Source of the DNA: an uncultured SAR324 cluster bacterium
Lineage (GTDB): Bacteria; SAR324; NAC60-12
Reading direction: 5' to 3'
Assembly: GCA_905182865.1 (NCBI GenBank)
Contig: CAJJCY010000004.1
Coordinates: 744,001-808,000, forward strand
Length of the DNA stretch: 64,000 nt
The notes under the pieces were generated by a model. That model was given only the letters and a program-made list of their open reading frames with translations, was not told the origin of the DNA and did no database searches. Positions 29,612-63,111 of the stretch are shown in pieces (position 1 is the stretch's first letter; each line of letters opens with the position of its first letter). The translations under genes and the position numbers were made by a program.

Positions 29612-30949
29612 TTATTTTAATCTTCTGTGAATAGAGAGTGCGGCCTGCTTACCGTCTTCCACGGATTGTACAGTTAAATCCTCTCCGGAACCCACACAAT
29701 CTCCTCCGGCCCAGACGCCTGGTAGAGACGTTTCAAATTCCAGGTTGACGTTTATTTTTCCACCTTCAATTGCAGGCATTTCCGAACCAGAAAAAACTGA
29801 GTCTTCCAATAACTGACCGATAGCCTTAAAAACAACATCAGCCTCCATATGACGAAACTCTCCTGTTCCTCTTAGTTTCCCTTCCGGGTTCAGTTCCATG
29901 CACTCAAACTCAATTCCGGTAACATGTCCATTTTCTGACCGCAAACTTTTTGGAGCAACCCAATGTTTTACGCGGACTCCGTTGGTTTGTGCAAACTCCT
30001 GTTCTTTCCAGGTGGCATTCATTTGTTCCGGCCCTCGTCGATAGGCCAGTGTTACATCTTCAGCACCAAGTTTTTTGGACTGCACCGCAATGTCAATTGC
30101 GGTACTTCCGCCACCGATCACTATTACACGCCGACCGACTGATAATTCTGCAAGATTTACGGATTGACGCAGCTCTAAAATAGTGTCGACCGCATCGTAA
30201 ACTCCAGCTATTTCTTCACTTTCCAAACCGAGTGAATTGACATCTCCTAAACCGACACTCAAAAATACTGCGTCAAATTCTTGACGGAGATCTTCCAGTT
30301 TCACATCCTGCCCCAATCGCTGATTCGTACGGATTTCTATCCCGCCGATCTTTAAAATAAAATCAACTTCACGCTGAGCAAAATCATTAACAGTTTTATA
30401 AGCCGCTATTCCGTATTCATTCAGACCGCTCAATTTTTCACGTGCTTCAAAGACTACTGCGTGATGGCCTAATACTGCAAGACGGTGTGCACACGAAAGT
30501 CCTGCGGGACCACCGCCGACAACCGCGATTTTTTTACCGCTTGATTCAGCTCTTTCAAAAAATGTTTCACTGGTTTCCAGATAACTGTCTGTCGCATAAC
30601 GCTGCAGTTCACCGATACGTACCGGCTGATGGTCCTGAGTTTCTCTGACACATGCCCCCTCACAAAGAGTTTCTGTTGGACAAACGCGGGCGCACATTCC
30701 ACCCATTATGTTTTGTGAAAAAATGTCTCTTGCAGATCCTTTCAGGTTGCCTGTAGATATTTTACGGATAAAATTTGGTATGTCGATAGCGGTGGGGCAT
30801 GCATCAATACATGGTGCGTCAAAACAAAAATAACAGCGGTTTGCCTCAACAATCGCATTTCCGGAATTCAAAGGTGGATGAGCATCGGAAAAATTTTCGG
30901 AAAGCTGTTCCTGTGATAAGCGTCCGGCCTGAACGTCGATAGTGGTCAT
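29612..30949 (-). CDS. preT: NAD-dependent dihydropyrimidine dehydrogenase subunit PreT
   Basis: CYFCFDAPCIDACPTAIDIPNFIRKISTGN, VVGGGPAGLSCAHRLAVLGH; start taken at MTTIDVQAG. Confidence 0.93.
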   Translation of the reverse strand: MTTIDVQAGRLSQEQLSENFSDAHPPLNSGNAIVEANRCYFCFDAPCIDACPTAIDIPNFIRKISTGNLKGSARDIFSQNIMGGMCARVCPTETLCEGACVRETQDHQPVRIGELQRYATDSYLETSETFFERAESSGKKIAVVGGGPAGLSCAHRLAVLGHHAVVFEAREKLSGLNEYGIAAYKTVNDFAQREVDFILKIGGIEIRTNQRLGQDVKLEDLRQEFDAVFLSVGLGDVNSLGLESEEIAGVYDAVDTILELRQSVNLAELSVGRRVIVIGGGSTAIDIAVQSKKLGAEDVTLAYRRGPEQMNATWKEQEFAQTNGVRVKHWVAPKSLRSENGHVTGIEFECMELNPEGKLRGTGEFRHMEADVVFKAIGQLLEDSVFSGSEMPAIEGGKINVNLEFETSLPGVWAGGDCVGSGEDLTVQSVEDGKQAALSIHRRLK

Positions 30950-33247: not shown

Positions 33248-34027
33248 ATGATTGAATATTTTATACACAGTGCGTCCTCATTTTCAGGGGATATAGACAA
33301 CCTCTTTTTTGTGATTACTTTGATCATAGGATTTTGGTTTATTCTTGTATTTGGCGCACTTGTTTATTTTATACTCAGATTTCGCAGGAAAGACGGTGTA
33401 AAGGCCCAGTACATAACCGGTGAGAAGCACAGTGAAACAAAATGGACTCATTATCCTCACTATGCAGTGATAGCTATGGATGTGGTCATAATTGCCGCTA
33501 ATATCATAGTTTGGGTAAACATAAAACAGACTTTGCCTCCTAAAGACAACCTTATCAGAGTCATCGGGCAACAATGGAGTTGGTCCTTTGTTGATGCAGG
33601 CCAGGATGGGGTCTTGGATACTGCTGATGATATTACTACAGTTAATGATCTGCATGTAAAAGTGGATGAAACATATCACTTTGAATTACAGTCTCGTGAT
33701 GTGCTTCATAACTTTTCTGTTCCAGCCTTTCGATTGAGACAAGATGCTGTGCCTGGTCGTACAATTAGTGGTTGGTTTAAGCCGACAATTACCGGTTCTT
33801 TTGATATACAATGCGCTGAAATGTGTGGATATGGTCACGGAATAATGGGGGCAGCAATTACAGTTCATTCTGAAGAAAGCTATACTACAACTATTGCTCA
33901 GATTAAAAGTGGTACCTATGAGAGTCATTTTCAAAAGCGTAAAGGAACCAAGACAGCATCCCCAATTAACACCTCTCAAGTTGAGGAGAAAGACTCCTTC
34001 GCAGAGCTTTTAGCCAGTATTTTTTAG
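33248..34027 (+). CDS. coxB: Cytochrome c oxidase subunit II
   Basis: CuA motif CAEMCGYGHGIM; two N-terminal TM helices. Confidence 0.94.
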   Translation: MIEYFIHSASSFSGDIDNLFFVITLIIGFWFILVFGALVYFILRFRRKDGVKAQYITGEKHSETKWTHYPHYAVIAMDVVIIAANIIVWVNIKQTLPPKDNLIRVIGQQWSWSFVDAGQDGVLDTADDITTVNDLHVKVDETYHFELQSRDVLHNFSVPAFRLRQDAVPGRTISGWFKPTITGSFDIQCAEMCGYGHGIMGAAITVHSEESYTTTIAQIKSGTYESHFQKRKGTKTASPINTSQVEEKDSFAELLASIF

Positions 34028-34033
34028 TATTAA

Positions 34034-35769
34034 TTTGTTGAAGAGAATAAAATTGAATTAACTGCAAATATAAAATTAGAACCTAATATACAGCAACATG
34101 AAGAATTAAGTTTTTTATACAAATATATTCTCCCTTTAGATCATAAAATAATTGGCATGCAATACATATTCACTGGATTGATCATGGCAATTATCGGTGG
34201 TTATTTTGCTTATGCTTTCCGGATGCAACTTGCCTTTCCAGGAGAAGTAGTTCCTTTCTATGGCCTGGTCGGACCGGGTGAATATAACATGTTGGTTACA
34301 AATCACGGAACCATCATGATTTTTTGGGTTGCTATGCCAGTGCTGATTGCGGGATTCGGTAACTATATTATCCCGTTGATGATCGGTTGTGATGATATGG
34401 TTTTTCCAAGATTGAACCGCTTGTCGTTTCAAATTTTTTTAGTCAGCGCTCTGGTTTTGATCCTATCTTTTTTTGTTAGAGGAGGGGGTTTTGGTGGAGC
34501 ATGGACTTCATACCCTCCTCTTTCTTCAGTAGCTGAATACAGTCTCACTGACTGGGGAGCTTCTTTATGGATTTTGGCTGTTGCTTTGGAGTTTGTGTCA
34601 TTTTTGTTAGGTGGAATAAATTTTATCACAACCACAATGAACGCACGTGCTCCGGGAATGAAAATGATGGACATTCCAATTGCTGTCTGGTTTATAGTTC
34701 TTGCAGTTATTTTGTTTATGGCGTCTGTTGGGCCACTGTTTGCTGGAGCTATTATGTTGTTCATGGATCAAAGAATTGGTACGACATTCTTCCTTCCGTC
34801 CGGTGGTGGTGATCCGTTACTTTGGCAACATTTGTTCTGGTTCTTTGGACATCCAGAAGTATATGTTGTACTGCTGCCGACCATGGGTATAGTTGCGGAT
34901 ATTATCACAGTTTTCTCCAGAAAAAACCTCTATTTGGATATGCCTCTATGGTATATGCAACAGCTTCAATTGCTTTCTTATCATTTATAGTTTGGGCACA
35001 TCATCAATTTATTGCAGGAATTGACCCTCGTGTGGCTAATGTTTTTGTTGTAACTACTGTTTTGATTTCAATTCCTCTTGCGGAAATGATGTTTAGCTAT
35101 ATTGCCACTCTGTACGGAGGTTCTATTGAATTTAAAACACCAATGCTCTGGGCTTTGAGCTTTTTAGCAGCATTTTTAATTGGTGGTGTTACGGGAATTT
35201 ATTTAGGAGCAAGTGCCCTGGATATATATTTTCATGATTCATATTTTGTGCTGGCCCACTTCCATTATACTTTTTTCCCAATCACTATTATAGGCATGTT
35301 TGCCGCACTCACTTATTGGTTCCCAAAAATGTTTGGTCGTATGATGAATGAAACCCTAGGCAAAATTCATTTTTGGGGAACTTTTATTCCATTTAACTGT
35401 ATTTTTCTGCCATTATTCCTACTTGGTTTGGCTGGACAAAATCGTAGGGTATACAATTTCCAAAACTATCCCGACTTAGCAAGACAAGAGTTACAAGATA
35501 TCAGAATATTTGCAACAGTTAGTTTAATAGTTTTGTTACTATTTCAATTTGTCTTCATTTATAATTTTTTCGTCAGCATGTTCAAAGGTGAAAAGGCTCC
35601 AAATAATCCATGGAATGCCAATACTCTCGAATGGAGTATTCCTTCCCCACCACCTCATGGTAATTTCAAGTCTTTTCCAACAGTTTACCGTGGAGCTTAT
35701 GAATATAGTGTGCCTGGTCGTGAAATGGATTACTGGCCTCAAAATGAACCACCTGAAGGAAACAAATAA
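34034..35769 (+). CDS. coxA: Cytochrome c oxidase subunit I (one frameshift at an A-run near 34920)
   Basis: LDHKIIGMQYIFTGLIMAIIGG, HGTIMIFW, FFGHPEVYVVLLP, WAHHQFIAGIDP, LAHFHY; ORFs 34157-34990 and 34822-35769 join at SRK(K)PLFGYAS; start codon unclear. Confidence 0.92.
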
Positions 35770-35838
35770 TTCTTTAAAATTTAAAAAAGAGCAAAAGATG
35801 CTTTATTTATATTGCTAACTACAAAAAAGGATTTAACA

Positions 35839-36420
35839 ATGTCGATGCATGGCCCTATTGCTACCCATAGAAGTGCTGCCGGTGTGCCCACCGGACGCTT
35901 AGCAACATGGTGGTTACTGGCTTCAGAAATTTTTATTTTTGGTGGATTAATTGCCTGCTTCCTCCTCTTTAAACTAAGTGGAACTCCTGGGTTTGAAGAC
36001 GCTTCCCTGACAAGTGTGACTGCAGGAGCTGTAAATACATTTGTACTTCTTACTTCCAGTTTGAGTATAGTACTGGCACATGCTGCAATCGAAAAAGGGG
36101 ATCAAAAGAAATCATTCACTTACATCTGGTACACAATTGGTGCAGGTCTGGTATTTTTAGGAATTAAAACTTATGAATACACCGGCAAAATTCTGAATGG
36201 TCATACAATTACGGAAAATATATTCTGGTCATTTTATTATACTATGACCGGATTACATGCCCTGCATGTTATTGGAGGAATGGTTATCATGGCACTCATT
36301 TCATTTGATATCCGCAAAGGGTACAATTATCAGCGTGTGGAACTGATAGGAATTTACTGGCACTTTGTAGATCTTGTCTGGATCTTCTTGTTTCCTCTCT
36401 TGTATATTGCAAATTTCTAA
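35839..36420 (+). CDS. coxC: Cytochrome c oxidase subunit III
   Basis: LATWWLLASEIFIFGGLIACFLLFK, TGLHALHVIGGMV, YWHFVDLVWIFLFPLLYI. Confidence 0.93.
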   Translation: MSMHGPIATHRSAAGVPTGRLATWWLLASEIFIFGGLIACFLLFKLSGTPGFEDASLTSVTAGAVNTFVLLTSSLSIVLAHAAIEKGDQKKSFTYIWYTIGAGLVFLGIKTYEYTGKILNGHTITENIFWSFYYTMTGLHALHVIGGMVIMALISFDIRKGYNYQRVELIGIYWHFVDLVWIFLFPLLYIANF

Positions 36421-50319: not shown

Positions 50320-50848
50320 ACTTCCTCCTTCACAGAAGAGCAGTGGACATATTTATTTGAAAACAAAGTGGTAAAACAGTAAAGCGATGTTAAATATATT
50401 AGAAGCAGATAAAGAGTTCGATCTCAACAGCTTTCCCTGCAACTATAATTCTATACCTATTGGTTCTGTAGTCAACTCTATAATTTGTGGAGAAACAGGC
50501 AAAATATAAAAATGCAAGAAGGTATTCTCAAGATTGAACAGAACAAAGTGCATTTCCCTGACTTAATATCTATGAAATAACCAGTACTTTGAGCCAAAAC
50601 CACCTAGACAAAAATTATTTCTGAGGAGTCTTATTTATGTAAAATTATTCTGACCATCACCTTAAGAATCAATTTGATTCTGGTTTTAATCATTGATAAA
50701 ATCAAATGTAAAATAGGCAGTGTTCAACATATTTTGAAATTTACTGCTTTTTTTCTGTACTGAGGTCGAATCTTTTGAGTCCTCTGTAACTGATTGGGAA
50801 TTAAAAAGACACTTTGAACGAATATAAATAATTTACAGGATAATAAAA

Positions 50849-51619
50849 TGAGATTAGAAAATAAGGTTGCCCTCATTACAGGCGCATCAAGTGGAATTGG
50901 GAAAGAATCTGCGCTGTTGTTTGCAAAAGAAGGTGCAAAAATTGTAGCAGTTGACGTACAGACTGCTTCCAAAAAAAACAGTTTCAGAAATTAAAGCTAC
51001 TGGAGGCGAAGCGATTTATACACATGCGGATATTTCCAAAGCAGCAGACTGCGAAAATATGGTTAAAACCGCAGAAGATCAATTCGGCAAACTGAATGTG
51101 ATGTTTAACAATGCCGGAATCATGGACAGCCGTGATGACAATGCGCTTGTTACAGAGGAAGAGGTTTGGGATTTAACGATGGCAATTAACCTTAAAGGAG
51201 TGTTTCTCGGCTGCAAATACGGAATTGCCGCCATGCTCCGAGCCGGTGGGGGGTCGATCATCAACACCGCTTCTTTCGTAGGACTGATGGGTGCAGCGAC
51301 TCCTCAGGTAGCCTACACCGCCAGCAAAGGAGGTGTGATTGCCCTGACTCGTGAATTATCCGTAATTCACGCACGTGAAAACATCCGGGTCAATGCCCTT
51401 TGTCCGGGACCTTTGCGCACTGAATTGCTGATGAAGTTCCTTGATACTGAAGCCAAAAAACAAAAACGGCTGGTACATATTCCTATGGGTCGTTTTGGAG
51501 AAGCAAAAGAAATGGCACAGGCAGCTTTATTTTTAGCTTCCGATGAGTCGTCATACACCACCGGAACAGAATTCGTAGTCGACGGCGGAATCACTTCAGC
51601 ATATGTAACTCCGGAGTGA
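50849..51619 (+). CDS. Short-chain dehydrogenase/reductase, one frameshift in an A-run near 50980
   Basis: [42 protein letters not shown] then shifted [22 protein letters not shown]...FNNAGIMDS...AYTASKGGV; 8 A where 7 would restore the frame. Confidence 0.92.
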
Positions 51620-51628
51620 TTTTTTCAA

Positions 51629-53137
51629 TCACTCTCCCCACTTAGCTTTTACTGCCTCACGATCTACCTCATTATTTTCGCGAGGCAGTATTTTCACAAA
51701 TTCTACTTTTCTGGGTTTCTTAAAACCCGCAATTTGTCCGCCAACATAATCACTTACTTCTTTTTCGGAAAGCTTGGATCCTTTCTTAAGCACACAAACT
51801 GCTTTCACTGCTTCGCCCCAGGTCTTATCAGTAACTCCTATAACACAGCAATCTTTAATCTCAGCATGTTTCCGCAAAACTGATTCAACCTCACCGGGAT
51901 AAACATTTTCTCCACCGGTTTTTATCAACTCTTTTTCTCCCTTTCTTTTGACATACCACAAGTATCCATCGTCATCTAAGCGTCCTATATCACCCGTGTG
52001 GTGCCAACTGTTGCGCTGGGCATATTCTGTTGCTTCGGGCATATTCCAGTATTCAAGAAAAATGTTTTCTCCCCGCACAACAATTTCGCCCTCTTCCCCT
52101 GTTGGCACCTTTTCATCTAACTCATTAACAATTGCCACGGAGTTAATCAAAGTCGACTGTCCGGAAGCACCAAGACGTTCAGAAGCTGGAGACGCAGTCA
52201 CAAAAGCCGTGGTTTCCGCTTGTCCAAAGCCCGTCCAAAAAACAGACTTGGTTTCTTCCTGTAAGCGTTTGATATTCTGTGGTCCTTCTAAACCATATAC
52301 AACCTGTAAACTTTTCAAAACTGATCCTGTTTCTTTTGCAGAGTCAAGTACACGTTCCAAAATTGGCGGAAACGAACCAAAATATGTCAGTTGTTCAGAG
52401 TCAATTAAACGCACAGCTTCTTTATCATCAAATTGTTTAAGCACTACATTTTTACCACCACCAATGAATGTCGCCCAGGCAGAAGTCAGACCCATCACAT
52501 GAAAGATCGGCAGCGCAAGTAAATGACCTTTGATGGCATCACTTCCAAAATGGTGGAGATGCACTGCCGCAGAGGCCAAAACATTTCGTTGACTGAGCAA
52601 AGCTCCTTTAGGCACACCATCCACTGCCGCAGTTGGAATAATCAACCAGCCCTCGTCCACACCGGGTTGTGGCTCAGTGAGCGGTGCAGGGTTTTCATCC
52701 AGCAGTTGGTCAAAGGATGTAGAAAGTATCGAAGCTTCATCAATACAGTAAAATTGACGATGTGGAAACACATCACTTAGTTCTTCAGCCTGCTGTTCGA
52801 AACTCGTTTGAAATAGCAAGGCTTTCGGTTTTGTACTTTCAAGCACCATGCGCATTTCGCCAGCACTTGTTCGTGTGTTCAAACAGACTGCAACTACCCC
52901 AACACGACTACAGGCAGCCAAAAGCAGTGCATATTCGGCACAGTTGTTTAGCAGAACAGCAATCCTGTCTCCTTTCTCAAAACCGGTATTCAGTAATCCC
53001 CGTGCCAGACAATTGACGTGAATTGGAATTTCCGAAAAAGTGAGTCTTAGATCACCTGAAACCAGAGCTGTTTCTTCGGATAAATTCAGGGCATTCCTCA
53101 TAATACAATCGTAAATAGAATGTTCCCGTATAGCCAT
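51629..53137 (-). CDS. Acyl-CoA synthetase / AMP-dependent ligase, copy 1
   Basis: Class I adenylate-forming enzyme: YWNMPEATEYAQRNSWHHTGDIGRLDDDGYLWYVKRKGEKELIKTGGENVYPGEVE. Confidence 0.93.
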   Translation of the reverse strand: MAIREHSIYDCIMRNALNLSEETALVSGDLRLTFSEIPIHVNCLARGLLNTGFEKGDRIAVLLNNCAEYALLLAACSRVGVVAVCLNTRTSAGEMRMVLESTKPKALLFQTSFEQQAEELSDVFPHRQFYCIDEASILSTSFDQLLDENPAPLTEPQPGVDEGWLIIPTAAVDGVPKGALLSQRNVLASAAVHLHHFGSDAIKGHLLALPIFHVMGLTSAWATFIGGGKNVVLKQFDDKEAVRLIDSEQLTYFGSFPPILERVLDSAKETGSVLKSLQVVYGLEGPQNIKRLQEETKSVFWTGFGQAETTAFVTASPASERLGASGQSTLINSVAIVNELDEKVPTGEEGEIVVRGENIFLEYWNMPEATEYAQRNSWHHTGDIGRLDDDGYLWYVKRKGEKELIKTGGENVYPGEVESVLRKHAEIKDCCVIGVTDKTWGEAVKAVCVLKKGSKLSEKEVSDYVGGQIAGFKKPRKVEFVKILPRENNEVDREAVKAKWGE

Positions 53138-53155
53138 TATTCCCTTTTCAATTTG

Positions 53156-53980
53156 TTAAAGTTCTTCCAGTAAACGTTGATGAATATTATCGAATTTCCC
53201 ATTACTCATAATTAAGACAACATCTCCTGAGCGGCAATTTGATTTTAGATGTTCAATTATGCCCTCTACTTGAGGAAATTCATAGGCAGGAATTTTGTTT
53301 TTAATCAGTGATTTCAAAACTTCCAAAACTTCCAAGCGCTGTTCTACAGGCGTCTGTTCCAAACGATGTGGTGTAGTTAAAATCACCTCGTCGGCTTCCT
53401 TGAAAGAGTCAATCAAGGCGTCCTGGTGTATTTTAAGTACGCTGGTATTGCTTCGTGGCTCAAAAACAGTAATCAAGCGGCGTCCTGGATGTTTTTGCCT
53501 GATTGCAGTCACTGTCTCACGAATCGCTGTCGGATGATGTGCAAAGTCATCATAAACAGAAATTCCGTTTACTTCTCCACGTAATTCCTGCCTTCTACGA
53601 ACACTCTGGAATGAATCAAAAGCAGCCTGAATTGTTTTGTCTGCAATTCCGTTATACCGTGCCAGTACAATCACACCCAATGCATTGAGGACGTTGTACG
53701 TTCCAAAAAGATTTAGTTCAAATTCCTGATTTTGGGTAGAACTTTCAGCACGATTGTCAAGTACCACAAAAGACATTCCTGCTTCACTGGATTTCAGATT
53801 TACTGCCTGTATATCACAAGATTTACCTAAACCAAATTTAAGTACCGGCGAAAAAGACGACTCCAAAACACTTTTTACATTTTCATCATCTCCATTGGCA
53901 ACAATCAGACCTTTCCGTGGAATAAGACGCAGCAGCAGTCTGAAGGCCTTTTTAATATCTGCAAGTGAATCAAAAATATC
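53156..53980 (-). pseudogene. mpl: mpl 3' fragment, copy 1, truncated at the duplication junction
   Basis: Identical to the C-terminal part of the 56129-57598 protein; N-terminal part replaced by junction sequence. Confidence 0.93.
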
Positions 53981-54592
53981 GAAGCGATTTATACACATGC
54001 GGATATTTCCAAAGCAGCAGACTGCGAAAATATGGTTAAAACCGCAGAAGATCAATTCGGCAAACTGAATGTGATGTTTAACAATGCCGGAATCATGGAC
54101 AGCCGTGATGACAATGCGCTTGTTACAGAGGAAGAGGTTTGGGATTTAACGATGGCAATTAACCTTAAAGGAGTGTTTCTCGGCTGCAAATACGGAATTG
54201 CCGCCATGCTCCGCGCCGGTGGGGGGTCGATCATCAACACCGCTTCTTTCGTAGGACTGATGGGTGCAGCGACTCCTCAGGTAGCCTACACCGCCAGCAA
54301 AGGAGGTGTGATTGCCCTGACTCGTGAATTATCCGTAATTCACGCACGTGAAAACATCCGGGTCAATGCCCTTTGTCCGGGACCTTTGCGCACTGAATTG
54401 CTGATGAAGTTCCTTGATACTGAAGCCAAAAAACAAAAACGGCTGGTACATATTCCTATGGGTCGTTTTGGAGAAGCAAAAGAAATGGCACAGGCAGCTT
54501 TATTTTTAGCTTCCGATGAGTCGTCATACACCACCGGAACAGAATTCGTAGTCGACGGCGGAATCACTTCAGCATATGTAACTCCGGAGTGA
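53981..54592 (+). pseudogene. SDR 3' fragment, copy 2, truncated at the duplication junction
   Basis: Begins at gaagcgatttatacac, lacks the Rossmann N-terminus; otherwise identical protein to copy 1. Confidence 0.93.
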
Positions 54593-54601
54593 TTTTTTCA
54601 A

Positions 54602-56110
54602 TCACTCTCCCCACTTAGCTTTTACTGCCTCACGATCTACCTCATTATTTTCGCGAGGCAGTATTTTCACAAATTCTACTTTTCTGGGTTTCTTAAAACC
54701 CGCAATTTGTCCGCCAACATAATCACTTACTTCTTTTTCGGAAAGCTTGGATCCTTTCTTAAGCACACAAACTGCTTTCACTGCTTCGCCCCAGGTCTTA
54801 TCAGTAACTCCTATAACACAGCAATCTTTAATCTCAGCATGTTTCCGCAAAACTGATTCAACCTCACCGGGATAAACATTTTCTCCACCGGTTTTTATCA
54901 ACTCTTTTTCTCCCTTTCTTTTGACATACCACAAGTATCCATCGTCATCTAAGCGTCCTATATCACCCGTGTGGTGCCAACTGTTGCGCTGGGCATATTC
55001 TGTTGCTTCGGGCATATTCCAGTATTCAAGAAAAATGTTTTCTCCCCGCACAACAATTTCGCCCTCTTCCCCTGTTGGCACCTTTTCATCTAACTCATTA
55101 ACAATTGCCACGGAGTTAATCAAAGTCGACTGTCCGGAAGCACCAAGACGTTCAGAAGCTGGAGACGCAGTCACAAAAGCCGTGGTTTCCGCTTGTCCAA
55201 AGCCCGTCCAAAAAACAGACTTGGTTTCTTCCTGTAAGCGTTTGATATTCTGTGGTCCTTCTAAACCATATACAACCTGTAAACTTTTCAAAACTGATCC
55301 TGTTTCTTTTGCAGAGTCAAGTACACGTTCCAAAATTGGCGGAAACGAACCAAAATATGTCAGTTGTTCAGAGTCAATTAAACGCACAGCTTCTTTATCA
55401 TCAAATTGTTTAAGCACTACATTTTTACCACCACCAATGAATGTCGCCCAGGCAGAAGTCAGACCCATCACATGAAAGATCGGCAGCGCAAGTAAATGAC
55501 CTTTGATGGCATCACTTCCAAAATGGTGGAGATGCACTGCCGCAGAGGCCAAAACATTTCGTTGACTGAGCAAAGCTCCTTTAGGCACACCATCCACTGC
55601 CGCAGTTGGAATAATCAACCAGCCCTCGTCCACACCGGGTTGTGGCTCAGTGAGCGGTGCAGGGTTTTCATCCAGCAGTTGGTCAAAGGATGTAGAAAGT
55701 ATCGAAGCTTCATCAATACAGTAAAATTGACGATGTGGAAACACATCACTTAGTTCTTCAGCCTGCTGTTCGAAACTCGTTTGAAATAGCAAGGCTTTCG
55801 GTTTTGTACTTTCAAGCACCATGCGCATTTCGCCAGCACTTGTTCGTGTGTTCAAACAGACTGCAACTACCCCAACACGACTACAGGCAGCCAAAAGCAG
55901 TGCATATTCGGCACAGTTGTTTAGCAGAACAGCAATCCTGTCTCCTTTCTCAAAACCGGTATTCAGTAATCCACGTGCCAGACAATTGACGTGAATTGGA
56001 ATTTCCGAAAAAGTGAGTCTTAGATCACCTGAAACCAGAGCTGTTTCTTCGGATAAATTCAGGGCATTCCTCATAATACAATCGTAAATAGAATGTTCCC
56101 GTATAGCCAT
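54602..56110 (-). CDS. Acyl-CoA synthetase / AMP-dependent ligase, copy 2
   Basis: Protein identical to copy 1 (502 aa). Confidence 0.93.
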   Translation of the reverse strand: MAIREHSIYDCIMRNALNLSEETALVSGDLRLTFSEIPIHVNCLARGLLNTGFEKGDRIAVLLNNCAEYALLLAACSRVGVVAVCLNTRTSAGEMRMVLESTKPKALLFQTSFEQQAEELSDVFPHRQFYCIDEASILSTSFDQLLDENPAPLTEPQPGVDEGWLIIPTAAVDGVPKGALLSQRNVLASAAVHLHHFGSDAIKGHLLALPIFHVMGLTSAWATFIGGGKNVVLKQFDDKEAVRLIDSEQLTYFGSFPPILERVLDSAKETGSVLKSLQVVYGLEGPQNIKRLQEETKSVFWTGFGQAETTAFVTASPASERLGASGQSTLINSVAIVNELDEKVPTGEEGEIVVRGENIFLEYWNMPEATEYAQRNSWHHTGDIGRLDDDGYLWYVKRKGEKELIKTGGENVYPGEVESVLRKHAEIKDCCVIGVTDKTWGEAVKAVCVLKKGSKLSEKEVSDYVGGQIAGFKKPRKVEFVKILPRENNEVDREAVKAKWGE

Positions 56111-56128
56111 TATTCCCTTTTCAATTTG

Positions 56129-57598
56129 TTAAAGTTCTTCCAGTAAACGTTGATGAATATTATCGAATTTCCCATTACTCATAATTAAGACAACATCTCC
56201 TGAGCGGCAATTTGATTTTAGATGTTCAATTATGCCCTCTACTTGAGGAAATTCATAGGCAGGAATTTTGTTTTTAATCAGTGATTTCAAAACTTCCAAA
56301 ACTTCCAAGCGCTGTTCTACAGGCGTCTGTTCCAAACGATGTGGTGTAGTTAAAATCACCTCGTCGGCTTCCTTGAAAGAGTCAATCAAGGCGTCCTGGT
56401 GTATTTTAAGTACGCTGGTATTGCTTCGTGGCTCAAAAACAGTAATCAAGCGGCGTCCTGGATGTTTTTGCCTGATTGCAGTCACTGTCTCACGAATCGC
56501 TGTCGGATGATGTGCAAAGTCATCATAAACAGAAATTCCGTTTACTTCTCCACGTAATTCCTGCCTTCTACGAACACTCTGGAATGAATCAAAAGCAGCC
56601 TGAATTGTTTTGTCTGCAATTCCGTTATACCGTGCCAGTACAATCACACCCAATGCATTGAGGACGTTGTACGTTCCAAAAAGATTTAGTTCAAATTCCT
56701 GATTTTGGGTAGAACTTTCAGCACGATTGTCAAGTACCACAAAAGACATTCCTGCTTCACTGGATTTCAGATTTACTGCCTGTATATCACAAGATTTACC
56801 TAAACCAAATTTAAGTACCGGCGAAAAAGACGACTCCAAAACACTTTTTACATTTTCATCATCTCCATTGGCAACAATCAGACCTTTCCGTGGAATAAGA
56901 CGCAGCAGCAGTCTGAAGGCCTTTTTAATATCTGCAAGTGAATCAAAAATATCTGCATGATCAAATTCGAGATTATTCAGAATTAACTGATCCGGCAGAT
57001 AGTGTAAAAATTTTGATCTTTTATCAAAAAATGCAGTGTCGTACTCATCACCTTCAGTAATAAAACAGTTACCGCTTCCATCAAGACAACTGGCTCCAAA
57101 ATTTTCTGCAATACCTCCAATCATGAAGCCCGGCTTTTTCTCTGCAGTCTCAAATACCCAGGCCAATAAAGACGTTGTAGTTGTTTTTCCGTGTGTTCCA
57201 GTGACCACAAGAGATGTTTTTCCACGTATGAAATACTCTTTCAGCAGTTCCGCCATCGAAATATACGGCAGTTTACTCTCCAGAATTGCCTCTACCTCAG
57301 GATTACCTCGCGATAGAGCATTTCCGATTACAACCAAATCAGGGACAGGCTCCAAATTTTTTGCGTCATATCCGCTCTTTACGGTTATGTTATTTTGTGA
57401 AAGAAATTCACTCATGGGAGGATAAACATTTTCATCAGAACCACATATATGATGACCACGCTGTTTCAATAACACTGCGAGAGAAGCCATTCCGGTTCCG
57501 CAGATTCCTGTAAAATAAATTAGCTTGGAATTTGAATATAGAAGAGACATCGGGTAACAAAATGTAGCTGCATTAAGAAAAACAGGAGGGAGCAGCAC
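56129..57598 (-). CDS. mpl: UDP-N-acetylmuramate:L-Ala-gamma-D-Glu-meso-DAP ligase
   Basis: IYFTGICGTGMASLAVLLKQRGHHICGSDENVYPPMSEFL, VTGTHGKTTTTSLLAWVFE, DDFAHHPTAIRETV. Confidence 0.94.
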   Translation of the reverse strand: MLLPPVFLNAATFCYPMSLLYSNSKLIYFTGICGTGMASLAVLLKQRGHHICGSDENVYPPMSEFLSQNNITVKSGYDAKNLEPVPDLVVIGNALSRGNPEVEAILESKLPYISMAELLKEYFIRGKTSLVVTGTHGKTTTTSLLAWVFETAEKKPGFMIGGIAENFGASCLDGSGNCFITEGDEYDTAFFDKRSKFLHYLPDQLILNNLEFDHADIFDSLADIKKAFRLLLRLIPRKGLIVANGDDENVKSVLESSFSPVLKFGLGKSCDIQAVNLKSSEAGMSFVVLDNRAESSTQNQEFELNLFGTYNVLNALGVIVLARYNGIADKTIQAAFDSFQSVRRRQELRGEVNGISVYDDFAHHPTAIRETVTAIRQKHPGRRLITVFEPRSNTSVLKIHQDALIDSFKEADEVILTTPHRLEQTPVEQRLEVLEVLKSLIKNKIPAYEFPQVEGIIEHLKSNCRSGDVVLIMSNGKFDNIHQRLLEEL

Positions 57599-57683: not shown

Positions 57684-59301
57684 TTAGAAGCGTTTATCGT
57701 AAACCTTTTCACCAATTTTACAAGCCAGTAACGTAAATGTTTCACGTTCAAAAGCTCCATCCAGTGCAACCTGTAGTTCGTTTCGACTTGAAATCCAGTG
57801 TCCAATACCACCCAAAGCCCGGGCTACAGCTGGAAAGTCGGTTGCACCAAAATCGACTCCGAGATTCTGTAATTTTGATTTACGCTGTTTGAGTTCAATC
57901 AGGGCCAGTGATTCATCGATAAATACCACAATCACAACAGGCAATTTTAAATCCCGCAAAGTCGCCAATTCACCTAAAACCATTTCCATACCTGCATCTC
58001 CGACAAAGGCCACGACCGCCGGAATGTCCTGAGCGACATTCCCGCACCAGACGTTCCGGCCTGAGCCGCCAAACGAAAGCCCATGGCCAACGGTACAGCG
58101 CAACCCATCGTACAAAGTCCAGAAGATTGCAGCAAGCTGCGAGCTTCGTAACATTCCCACATCTGGCTCAGCAAAATCCTGTGCGCTCCGCTGTCCACCG
58201 TGGCAATTCCATTTCGTGGTAAGGCTTTTCGCACAACATCAACTACGGCTCCTGGCCCCCATTCCACCAGCACCGGCGTTAAGTTCCGGAAAAGATCGAT
58301 TTCAAATCTCTCCTGACTTTTTCCGGTTCTCCATTTTTCCAAACCAGATTTGCAGAAGCTTCTTTTCTCAAGGTTTTCAAACCTTCACCAACGTGTCCGA
58401 CAAAACTCAAATCGGCTTGGTGCATATAATGCGTGTTTGGTACTGCGCAAAATTCGATCACCCTTCGTGCCATCATCCCAGGGTCACGCCAGCCTGAACG
58501 CATTTCAATCGGATCGTATCCTGCCAGAATAATTAAATCACTTTCCCGTACCAGTGGTAACAAATATTGGTCGGCCAAAGGGGACAGGCCCGCACCGCCA
58601 AGGGCAAGCGCGTCATCCTCAGGCAGCAATCGCCTTTTGCTTTGTATGTCGTGACATCAGTGGATCGCGAAACGTCCCGCCATTTCCGTTCACATCGCAG
58701 TGGCGGCATCTCTCGATTCGACGGCATCCACACCTGCTATTATCAAAGGCCGTTTTGCTTCCCGGAACCACTGTCGGGCAGCTTCCAATTCTGTTCCTTC
58801 CGCTGGTGCGGTATGTGAAGGAAATGTTCGGACAATCATAGTGCTTGCCGGCTGTGATTTCGAGGCCAGACTAATCGGCAAATCAAGATGCACCGGTCCG
58901 GGTTGACCGTCCAACGCGATCGCTATCGCCTTATCAATGGACACATCAACAGCGCCATCAACGACTTTTATACTGGCCTTAGTAACCGATTTGAGTAATT
59001 CACCGTGATCAAAAACCTGATGAGTGTAGGTCAGGGCCTCATCAGCATCCACACAACCGGTAAGGAAAATCAACGGCACCCGATCCTGAAAAGCATTTGC
59101 TACTACATTCACAGCATTGGCAACTCCCGGACCAATGGTCGCAACCAGAATTCCTGGCGCACCGTCAGCATGAAACCCGCCTTCCGCCATGAACCCGGCA
59201 CAGTTTTCGTGCTTTGTTAAAACAAAATCAATTCCGGATTTTTTCAAGCCCTCCATCAAAACCATCAAAGATTGCTGGTCAAACCTTGTTGACACAGTCA
59301 T
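57684..59301 (-). pseudogene. Thiamine-pyrophosphate enzyme (acetolactate synthase-like), N-terminally truncated and multiply frameshifted
   Basis: Pieces 58690-59301 (KHENCAGFMAEGGFHADGAPGILVATIGPGVANAVN), 58279-58629, 57974-58342, 57684-58160 (FVGDAGMEMVLGELATLRDLKLPVVIVVF) in different frames. Confidence 0.85.
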
Positions 59302-59475: not shown

Positions 59476-60702
59476 TTATGCCTCTTTTGCCGCCAATTTA
59501 AAATGCCCGTCCCGTGTTTGCGGGAGTTTTCGATTCAGTAATGCGGAGGCCACTACAGTACGCAAAATCTGTGCTGTGCCGCCTCCAATGGTAAACATAC
59601 GTGCATCCCTCACCATACGTTCCAGTGGCATGTTACGGGAATATCCAGCAGAACCAAATATTTGCAGTGCGTCATTGGTGACTTTGATTGCCATTTCAGA
59701 GGAAAAAATCTTGGCCTGCGCCGCTTCCAGCATGTCTGGAAAACCCGGAACGTCCGGTGCGACTTGTCCAGAACTTCCGGAACTTGAGCTAGCAGCTTTG
59801 TGAAGCAATAGCCGTGCGGCTTCAATTTGCGTGTGCATATCGACCAGCATCCACTGTAATCCCTGAAATTCGCAAATAGGGCGTCCGAATTGTTCACGTT
59901 GCTTTGAATAGTCCAAGGCCAGTTCATAGGCACCAGTGGCAATACCCAGCGCTACCGTTCCAGCTCCAACACGCTGGCCGTTGTAAGCATTCATCAACCC
60001 GGCAAATCCGTGTCGCAAACCTTCCGGCGGAATCAAGACCATTTCTTCCGGAACTTCTAAATCTTTGCAAATGATATGCGTTTCCGGCATTCCGCGCAAA
60101 CCCATCGCCGGTTCGCGTCTTCCCACTTTCAATCCCTTTGTTCCCTGCAAAACGATAAATCCAGCAATACCCTGCGATTCGTTATTTTCGAAAACACGGG
60201 CAAAAATTAAATGAAACTTGGAAACTCCACCACCCGTAATCCAGTGCTTTGTACCGTTGAGAATATAGCTGTCGCCTTTGTGATCGGCGCGTGTCGTCAT
60301 TTCTGTGGCCGCACTTCCAGCTCCAGGTTCGGTGATGCAGATCGCCGGTTTGTCGCCACTCAAAACATGTTCCGCCGCCAATTTTTTTTGAACTTCTGAA
60401 CCGTATTTCATTACTGCTCCAACTGCTCCCATATTCGCTTCCACAACTATCCGAGCCGAAACCCCGCAGGCCTTTGCAATTTCCTCAATTACCAGTACCA
60501 CATCCATATACGACATCCCAGGTCCTCCATATTCTTCCGGAATCGTCATGCCCATGAAACCCTGCTTGGTCAAGAGTTCAACATTTTCCCATGGATACTG
60601 TTCCGTACGATCTACTTCTGCGGCACGGGGGGCAATTTCCTTTTTGGCAAACTCCCGTGCGGTTAATTGCAGTTGTTTCTGTGTTGCTGATAGTTCAAAC
60701 AT
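59476..60702 (-). CDS. Acyl-CoA dehydrogenase
   Basis: CITEPGAGSAATEMTTRADHKGDSYILNGTKHWITGG; YSRNMPLERMVRDARMFTIGGGTAQILRTVVA. Confidence 0.94.
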   Translation of the reverse strand: MFELSATQKQLQLTAREFAKKEIAPRAAEVDRTEQYPWENVELLTKQGFMGMTIPEEYGGPGMSYMDVVLVIEEIAKACGVSARIVVEANMGAVGAVMKYGSEVQKKLAAEHVLSGDKPAICITEPGAGSAATEMTTRADHKGDSYILNGTKHWITGGGVSKFHLIFARVFENNESQGIAGFIVLQGTKGLKVGRREPAMGLRGMPETHIICKDLEVPEEMVLIPPEGLRHGFAGLMNAYNGQRVGAGTVALGIATGAYELALDYSKQREQFGRPICEFQGLQWMLVDMHTQIEAARLLLHKAASSSSGSSGQVAPDVPGFPDMLEAAQAKIFSSEMAIKVTNDALQIFGSAGYSRNMPLERMVRDARMFTIGGGTAQILRTVVASALLNRKLPQTRDGHFKLAAKEA

Positions 60703-60765
60703 TATTTTTGAATAGTTGATTATTTTATGAAAATTAGACTGGTTAAATATGAAAAATTGAATTTT

Positions 60766-60936
60766 CTAGAGGCTCTTCACGTCCTGCAGTTTTCTCAGCA
60801 CTGGTACACGGATTCCCAAAAAGATATCAACTTCACCGTATTCTCCTTTTCCGGTTTTGAAAAATCTTTGTGAATGTTCAGCTATTTGCTCATTGGCCAG
60901 CTGCATCAAATCATTATGAATGATTTTATGATTCAT
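60766..60936 (-). pseudogene. N-terminal remnant of a DNA alkylation repair (AlkD-like) protein
   Basis: Read by eye: [56 protein letters not shown]; typical AlkD-family N-terminus cut after 50 aa. Confidence 0.75.
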
Positions 60937-61008
60937 TTTTCAAAATTATACAAAATAATTTTGTGTAAAAAATGGATTCATAAAAATGTTAAAAATTTCT
61001 ATAAACAT

Positions 61009-61848
61009 TCAAAATAATAATCCAGAAAATGTTTTTTTAATAAACATACGTGGAAAGCCTGCATAGTCGCGAATGGCTTGATGCTGCACGCAGCGGTTAT
61101 CCCACATCAACACATCTCCTTGGCGCCAACTGTGGCGGTAGATATTTTCCTGCCGCGTGGCAAGTTCCATTAGCCATTCAATCAACAATCGGCTTTCTTC
61201 CGGTGTCCATCCAACAAAACTCTCGGTATAATATGGATTGACGTATAGCGCCTTGCGACCGGTTTCGGGATGAGTACGCACCACAGGATGGCTGACTATA
61301 CTTGGAATAGAAGCAATCGATTTGGCGTTGTTATCGCCTTCGTTGTTCCGTCGAACCAAAGCTTCTGCGGAATGCAAAGCACGCAAGCCTTTCAGTGTTT
61401 TTTGCAGTCCTGGAGACAGTTCCTCTAAAACACTATACATATTGCAAAACAAAGTATCTCCCAGTCCTTCACCCGGGACCTCAAGAGCGTAGAGTACTGA
61501 ACCAAGCGGAGGACATTCTGCGAAGGAAATATCAGAATGCCAAAAGTCATTCCGTGGTGCAGGAATATCGGCGCGGTTCTCCAATACTAGAATTTCAGGT
61601 TGGGATAGGGCTCCCTCACGGCTCCCCAAAGGATGAGGTTCCACCGGTCCAAAGCAACTTGTAAAACTGACCTGTTGTGCAGGAGTTAAACATTGTTCTC
61701 GGAAGAGCAACACTATGTTTTCGTGGAATGCATCTTTGATCTTGGAACAGTTTGCTGGGTCCATATCATGTGACAGATCTATTCCGTGCACCTCCGCGCC
61801 CAATGCCCCGCAGAGAGGGGTTATTTCAACTTTCATTTTGCTTCCCAA
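61009..61848 (-). CDS. TauD/TfdA-family dioxygenase
   Basis: ALGAEVHGIDLSHDMD, FWHSDISFAECPPLGSVLYA, GDVLMWDNRCVQHQAIRDY. Confidence 0.93.
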   Translation of the reverse strand: MGSKMKVEITPLCGALGAEVHGIDLSHDMDPANCSKIKDAFHENIVLLFREQCLTPAQQVSFTSCFGPVEPHPLGSREGALSQPEILVLENRADIPAPRNDFWHSDISFAECPPLGSVLYALEVPGEGLGDTLFCNMYSVLEELSPGLQKTLKGLRALHSAEALVRRNNEGDNNAKSIASIPSIVSHPVVRTHPETGRKALYVNPYYTESFVGWTPEESRLLIEWLMELATRQENIYRHSWRQGDVLMWDNRCVQHQAIRDYAGFPRMFIKKTFSGLLF

Positions 61849-61884
61849 AAACGTGTCTTAAAAAGAATATCCCAAACCAATTTT

Positions 61885-63111
61885 TCAAACTACCTTTTTC
61901 ATTGCCAATTCCCTTCGTTCATCTTCATCCATGCCCAGTAATTCCTCTAATATTTCGTCCGTGTGCTGACCTAATGTTGGCGGAGCATGTCGGTAAGTCA
62001 CCGGCGTTGCCGACATTTTCAGTGGACTGCCGATTAAAGTGACATTTCCATTTCCGGAAAGTGGGTGGGGCATGGAAATTTCCATTTCGCGGTGCTGGAT
62101 TTGAGGATCATCAAAGACTTCTTTGATTGTGTTAACAGGGCCACAGGGAACCTGCCTTTTTGCCAGTCCCTCCAACCAATATTGAGTCGTGTGTTGTTGC
62201 GTCAAATCAGTAATCAATGCAACCAAAATGTTACGATTTTTCACTCTATCCGAATTAGTTTTGAAGCGGGAATCATCAGGCAATTCCGATGCCTCCGCAA
62301 ATTTACAAAACTTCCTGAACTGAGCATCGTTTCCAATTGCCAATACAAAAAAACTATCACTTGTTTGAAAAGATTGATAAGGCACGATGTTCGGATGGGC
62401 ATTACCCAGACGGTGCTGATCTTCGCGGGAAGTTAAATAATTCGATCCGGAATTGATCAGCCATGCTGTCTGTGAATCGAGCAACGCCAAGTCGATGTAT
62501 TGTCCCTGTCCACCCTGATCCCGATGACGAATTGCTGCCAGAATACTGACTGCAGCATACATTCCGCACATCACATCCGCTATGCCGACGCCTACCTTCA
62601 TTGGTGAACCATCCGGTTCTCCGGTAACACTCATTATTCCGCCCATCGCCTGAATCATAAAATCGTAACCTGGCAAGTGCGACTTTGGCCCTGACTGTCC
62701 GAAGCCGGAAATGGAACAATAAATCAATTCTGGAAATTCCGTTTTTATTGCGGCATAATCCAAACCGTATTTTTTCAGGCCACCAACTTTATAATTCTCA
62801 ATCAGCACATCACATTTACCAACAAGTTTCCAGATCAGTTTCTGTCCTTCCTCCTTTGTAATATCTACCGTCAATGAACGCTTGTTGCGGTTAGCACAAA
62901 GATAATACGCGCTTTCGCTGGTGTCATTTCCGTCTGAGTCTTTAACATACGGAGGCCCCCATTTACGGGTATCATCACCTACTCCCGGACGTTCAATTTT
63001 AATGATATCTGCTCCTAAATCGCCAAACATTTGAGTACAGGTTGGACCGGCTAAAATCCGGGTCATGTCTAAAATACGTAAGCCTTTTAGGGGGCCTGGG
63101 TTGGTTGCCAT
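61885..63111 (-). CDS. CaiB/BaiF family CoA transferase
   Basis: LKGLRILDMTRILAGPTCTQMFGDLGADIIKIERPGVGDDTRKWGPP. Confidence 0.95.
   Translation of the reverse strand: MATNPGPLKGLRILDMTRILAGPTCTQMFGDLGADIIKIERPGVGDDTRKWGPPYVKDSDGNDTSESAYYLCANRNKRSLTVDITKEEGQKLIWKLVGKCDVLIENYKVGGLKKYGLDYAAIKTEFPELIYCSISGFGQSGPKSHLPGYDFMIQAMGGIMSVTGEPDGSPMKVGVGIADVMCGMYAAVSILAAIRHRDQGGQGQYIDLALLDSQTAWLINSGSNYLTSREDQHRLGNAHPNIVPYQSFQTSDSFFVLAIGNDAQFRKFCKFAEASELPDDSRFKTNSDRVKNRNILVALITDLTQQHTTQYWLEGLAKRQVPCGPVNTIKEVFDDPQIQHREMEISMPHPLSGNGNVTLIGSPLKMSATPVTYRHAPPTLGQHTDEILEELLGMDEDERRELAMKKVV

Follow-up and report, generated by a model that had tools for sequence, protein, structure and literature searches.

A tandem 2973-bp repeat of an acyl-CoA ligase locus in a SAR324-cluster draft genome, probably a false duplication made in assembly

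In a draft genome of the SAR324 cluster (3.23 Mb in 5 contigs, 86.5% complete), an acyl-CoA ligase gene and parts of both its neighbours are printed twice in succession. Does the chromosome of this bacterium carry two copies, or did the assembly make the second one? The question was addressed in a window of 64,000 nucleotides (contig C4, 744001-808000; all coordinates are those of the window unless a contig is named), chiefly by comparison with the sister genome SAR324-CTD7B (G001), which is 96-98% identical. We put the probability that the array was produced by a joining error in assembly at about 0.6. The features concerned are as follows.

50721-50972, no strand: seam of low identity to the left of the repeat; 81-86% to G001 with several indels, as opposed to about 98% beyond it
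50849-51619, + strand: SDR family oxidoreductase, the copy bearing the 5' end; not intact, frameshifted at 50961-50971
51008-53980, no strand: repeat copy 1, delimited by exact comparison; non-ancestral base at both differing sites, as judged from G001
51629-53137, - strand: acyl-CoA ligase (AMP-binding enzyme) copy 1, 502 aa; Pfam PF00501 and PF13193
53156-54055, - strand: mpl 3' fragment (middle and C-terminal domains) without the N-terminal Mur ligase domain, fused to SDR sequence in antisense
53980/53981, no strand: junction AAAAATATC/GAAGCG, left side in mpl and right side in SDR; 1 bp homology
53981-56953, no strand: repeat copy 2, delimited by exact comparison; sister-genome base at both differing sites
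54032-54592, + strand: SDR 3' fragment, 186 aa, beginning at about position 61 of the adh_short_C2 model, without the nucleotide-binding N-terminus
54602-56110, - strand: acyl-CoA ligase copy 2, 502 aa, protein identical to copy 1; 18 bp downstream of the intact mpl
56129-57598, - strand: intact mpl of 489 aa, encoding UDP-N-acetylmuramate:L-alanyl-gamma-D-glutamyl-meso-diaminopimelate ligase; TIGR01081 score 467.6 bits, cut-off 388.7

When the window is compared with itself at an offset of 2973, positions 51008-53980 match 53981-56953 over 2973 bp with two mismatches and no indels, and identity drops off sharply beyond both ends. The resulting 99.93% identity excludes a chance match, and the unit is the sole direct repeat of at least 40 bp between 45 and 64 kb of the window. 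Each unit takes in the whole ligase gene (-), flanked by the 3' parts of the SDR gene (+) and of mpl (-). A preliminary description had given this recurrence with its constant offset, and its coordinates are right to the base; direct comparison also returns the same two single-base differences that it listed as synonymous third-codon changes. One lies in an SDR arginine codon (51241 A versus 54214 C; CGA/CGC) and the other in a ligase arginine codon (53000 C versus 55973 A; CGG/CGT). G001 has C and A at these sites, the bases of copy 2, and copy 1 thus bears the changed base at both.

This arrangement of near-identical units set head to tail, each with an intact gene, is what a real tandem duplication would show. 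The perfect register, the two intact ligase copies and the lack of any indel difference between them favour such an event and count against a false duplication, and two synonymous changes that both fall in copy 1 relative to the sister are as expected of mutation after duplication. Being synonymous, the differences also fit genuine variation more readily than chance errors, but they number only two and variants from different strains would look alike.

The genes of the array are less complete than was first supposed. The claim that both flanking genes survive in one full copy holds for mpl, which is complete at 489 aa, but fails for the SDR, of which one copy is frameshifted and the other lacks its N-terminal part. 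The SDR 5' part (ATG at 50849) is out of frame with the remainder (ORF 50951-51619), and indels relative to G001 fall at 50961, 50964 and 50971. As for the ligase, its 25 best NCBIfam matches all fall short of their curated cut-offs. Scans for promoters and terminators returned sites no more numerous than in shuffled sequence.

The array is private to this assembly. The ligase is single-copy in all 12 of the same-genus genomes in which it was found (G001-G005, G007 and G011-G016; the G007 contig stops within the ligase gene), and the order is SDR-ligase-mpl wherever contigs cover both neighbours. Among the named relatives, which at the ligase locus are MAGs of the SAR324 cluster, SAR324-CTD7B (LSNO01000085.1; 96% protein identity) comes closest; its 45,658-bp contig C28 spans both flanks and carries one ligase. 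A 120-bp probe across 53980/53981 matches the relatives as separate halves only, with no match spanning the junction. The search of related genomes for the same array, which the preliminary description had proposed, thus returned nothing, either among the 12 ligase carriers or with the probe. An ancestral array shared with the relatives is thereby ruled out, as those that carry the ligase have one copy and none has a spanning match; the duplication is therefore either recent and confined to this assembly or not real. Its absence from all relatives, the closest included, counts against a real duplication. In one further genome (G009) the SDR gene and mpl are adjacent, about 110 bp apart, with no ligase between them, and the ligase is therefore an accessory gene at this site.

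A separate difference from G001 lies nearby: at 50610-50621 the window lacks about 4.6 kb that G001 has (C28:33869-38450). By eye, this segment holds TRAP-transporter-like genes, for a binding protein and for large and small permeases, together with another SDR gene. It may reflect gain, loss or a misjoin.

Both breakpoints of the repeat are intragenic, in the SDR gene and in mpl. The base C precedes each copy, giving a junction homology of 1 bp, and the longest word common to the regions near both ends is 8 bp and is located off the break. The microhomology of about 1 bp that had been reported is thus seen in direct comparison, but only part of what was drawn from it stands. No repeat-mediated junction is present: apart from the unit itself there is no direct repeat of at least 40 bp in that 45-64 kb and no flanking repeat, and an IS- or repeat-mediated origin was rejected. 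A single base is, on the other hand, not diagnostic of illegitimate recombination, because at least 1 bp of homology is expected in 45% of random joins, so that the observed value is at chance level, and because a genome-wide survey in Salmonella deduced a junction cut-off of 11 bp or more for true spontaneous duplications (PMC3411829). Chance-level homology suits an assembly join, and illegitimate recombination is equally allowed by it. The survey's cut-off, set against 1 bp here, speaks against a real duplication; in its favour, amplifications with no junction homology are known (PMC11721125), as are duplications without it (PMC11111574).

The sequence just left of the repeat is disturbed. 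From 50973 to past 51200 the window is about 98-99% identical to G001 (98.6% over 50985-51130), whereas 50845-50958 is 96.5% identical to G013, another species, whose identity over the locus is 77%. Between them lies a scrambled, frame-breaking seam (50958-50972), the last difference of which, at 50972, is 35 bp ahead of the repeat start. A G013-like left side and a G001-like right side look like mixed strains, and the fact that the left end of the repeat adjoins a faulty seam weighs against a real duplication.

Similar trouble is found elsewhere in the window. When the genes of the 45.7-kb G001 contig are mapped on the window, 26 are intact and 7 of the 33 are frame-broken; in the reverse mapping of window genes on G001, 37 are intact and the 1 that is broken is a piece of a TPP enzyme gene that is itself among the broken genes of the window. 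Patches of low identity with indels, some 100 bp to 2 kb long, alternate with stretches of 97-100% identity. These frame-breaking mosaic seams are read as consensus faults from mixed strains, not as biology, because natural recombination mosaics should rarely break frames at their seams. They would then be further local errors of this consensus, which is what a false duplication leads one to expect. The indels in general were not attributed to homopolymer error, since most of the isolated ones lie outside long homopolymers.

Three sites in the window illustrate the extent of these differences. The TPP enzyme gene (acetolactate-synthase-like; 57684-59301, - strand) has about 20 indels and runs through several frames where the G001 gene is intact, and its indels are probably consensus faults. 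The blocks 29989-30689 and 33689-35889 are 60-91% (mostly 67-86%) identical to G001 amid surroundings mostly above 90%, which suggests a mosaic strain origin or a chimeric consensus.

A joining error in assembly would account for these observations in the following way. The true chromosome locus would be single-copy as in the relatives, reading flank, SDR, ligase and mpl. Two assembled pieces, derived from near-identical co-occurring strains, would overlap by 2973 bp at 99.93% identity, the left one having its end in mpl (53980) and the right one its start in the SDR gene (53981). Set end to end with the overlap unmerged, they would print the common stretch twice. This explanation is favoured because the arbitrary intragenic ends, the chance-level homology, the absence in relatives and the nearby consensus trouble are all predicted by it and seen. 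Of the two possibilities initially raised, strain variants joined by an assembler is accordingly the one that we judge likelier, the balance having shifted with the incomplete SDR, the undiagnostic single base of homology and the frame-breaking mosaic seams throughout the window.

A duplicate printed from overlapping flanks, with Ns between the copies, has been described as a local assembly error (PMC7111523). The array resembles such false duplications in being a direct repeat of the overlap with arbitrary intragenic ends and chance-level homology, and also in its near-identical strain variants and its absence from relatives. It differs in having no Ns between the copies.

The main alternative is a real and recent tandem duplication by illegitimate recombination, with little or no homology, between a site in the SDR gene and a site in mpl. 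We regard this as possible but somewhat doubtful. The duplication would have been kept by selection for ligase dosage or caught in passing, and expression of the extra ligase would come from transcripts reading through from mpl and from the other ligase copy. Spontaneous illegitimate tandem duplications (PMC11111574, PMC11721125) likewise repeat an entire gene head to tail and leave the flanking genes truncated where the units meet; the present case differs in its chance-level homology, the faulty assembly adjoining it and the lack of a selected phenotype. Tandem amplifications are also typically unstable without selection (PMC11721125), and to reach a population consensus this one would need selection or luck. 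A narrower version of this reading is unlikely: that in a marine SAR324 strain selection recently favoured a genuine extra dose of an accessory acyl-CoA ligase, lying beside the likely 3-sulfinopropanoyl-CoA desulfinase described below, and that the array was caught in the wild before it was lost by recombination.

Other repeats in the genome bear on the choice between an assembly join and a real event. A self-comparison of about 800 kb, window included (C4:464001-862623 with 200 kb from each of C1 and C3), turned up no other tandem duplication that is blunt and near-perfect. A run of 5000 Ns in contig C3 (30001-35000) begins and ends at round coordinates, is probably a mask and was not counted as a sign of scaffolding. 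That the sampled sequence holds no other such duplication favours a real event, and a lone event slightly weakens the reading as an artefact, though an error of this kind can occur singly. A genome-wide rash of false duplications was rejected, none having been seen in the sample; the other local repeats on C4 look like paralogues, those examined (named by eye from translations) being flagellin, chemoreceptor-like genes and a repeat-rich, heavily broken surface protein. The last corresponds to repeat-rich, surface-protein-like frames at C4:653000-680000, whose internal repeats measure 0.3-3 kb and are 82-99% identical.

The start of contig C1 (1-2349) is a 2.3-kb array of the 8-bp unit TCCTGTAA in about 290 copies, which suggests that long reads were used and that the repeat was left unresolved at the contig end. 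Long reads of this sort might have spanned 6 kb, which counts against a false duplication.

It is highly improbable that a duplication in a minority of cells, or a chimeric library molecule, was taken as consensus by the assembler: this would account for the absence in relatives and the blunt junction, and such junctions are known to arise from chimeric ligation molecules (PMC3411829), but a consensus normally needs several independent reads and nothing seen here points to this origin directly.

The array is thus probably not biology, which is the likelier reading and not a proven one, and under either reading the event is of an ordinary kind. If false, as is likelier, it serves as a caution that copy numbers and gene integrity of this draft genome are untrustworthy without reads. 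If real, it would be one more young tandem duplication and a snapshot, of modest interest, of changing gene dosage in an uncultured marine lineage.

Within 59476-63111 (- strand), an acyl-CoA dehydrogenase scores above the NCBIfam cut-off for 3-sulfinopropanoyl-CoA desulfinase (657 versus 600), and the gene set beside the ligase thus likely includes this enzyme. The neighbours of the candidate desulfinase are a taurine-dioxygenase-like gene and one for a class III CoA-transferase; this region, which lies upstream of mpl and the ligase, may be a cluster for organosulfur catabolism.
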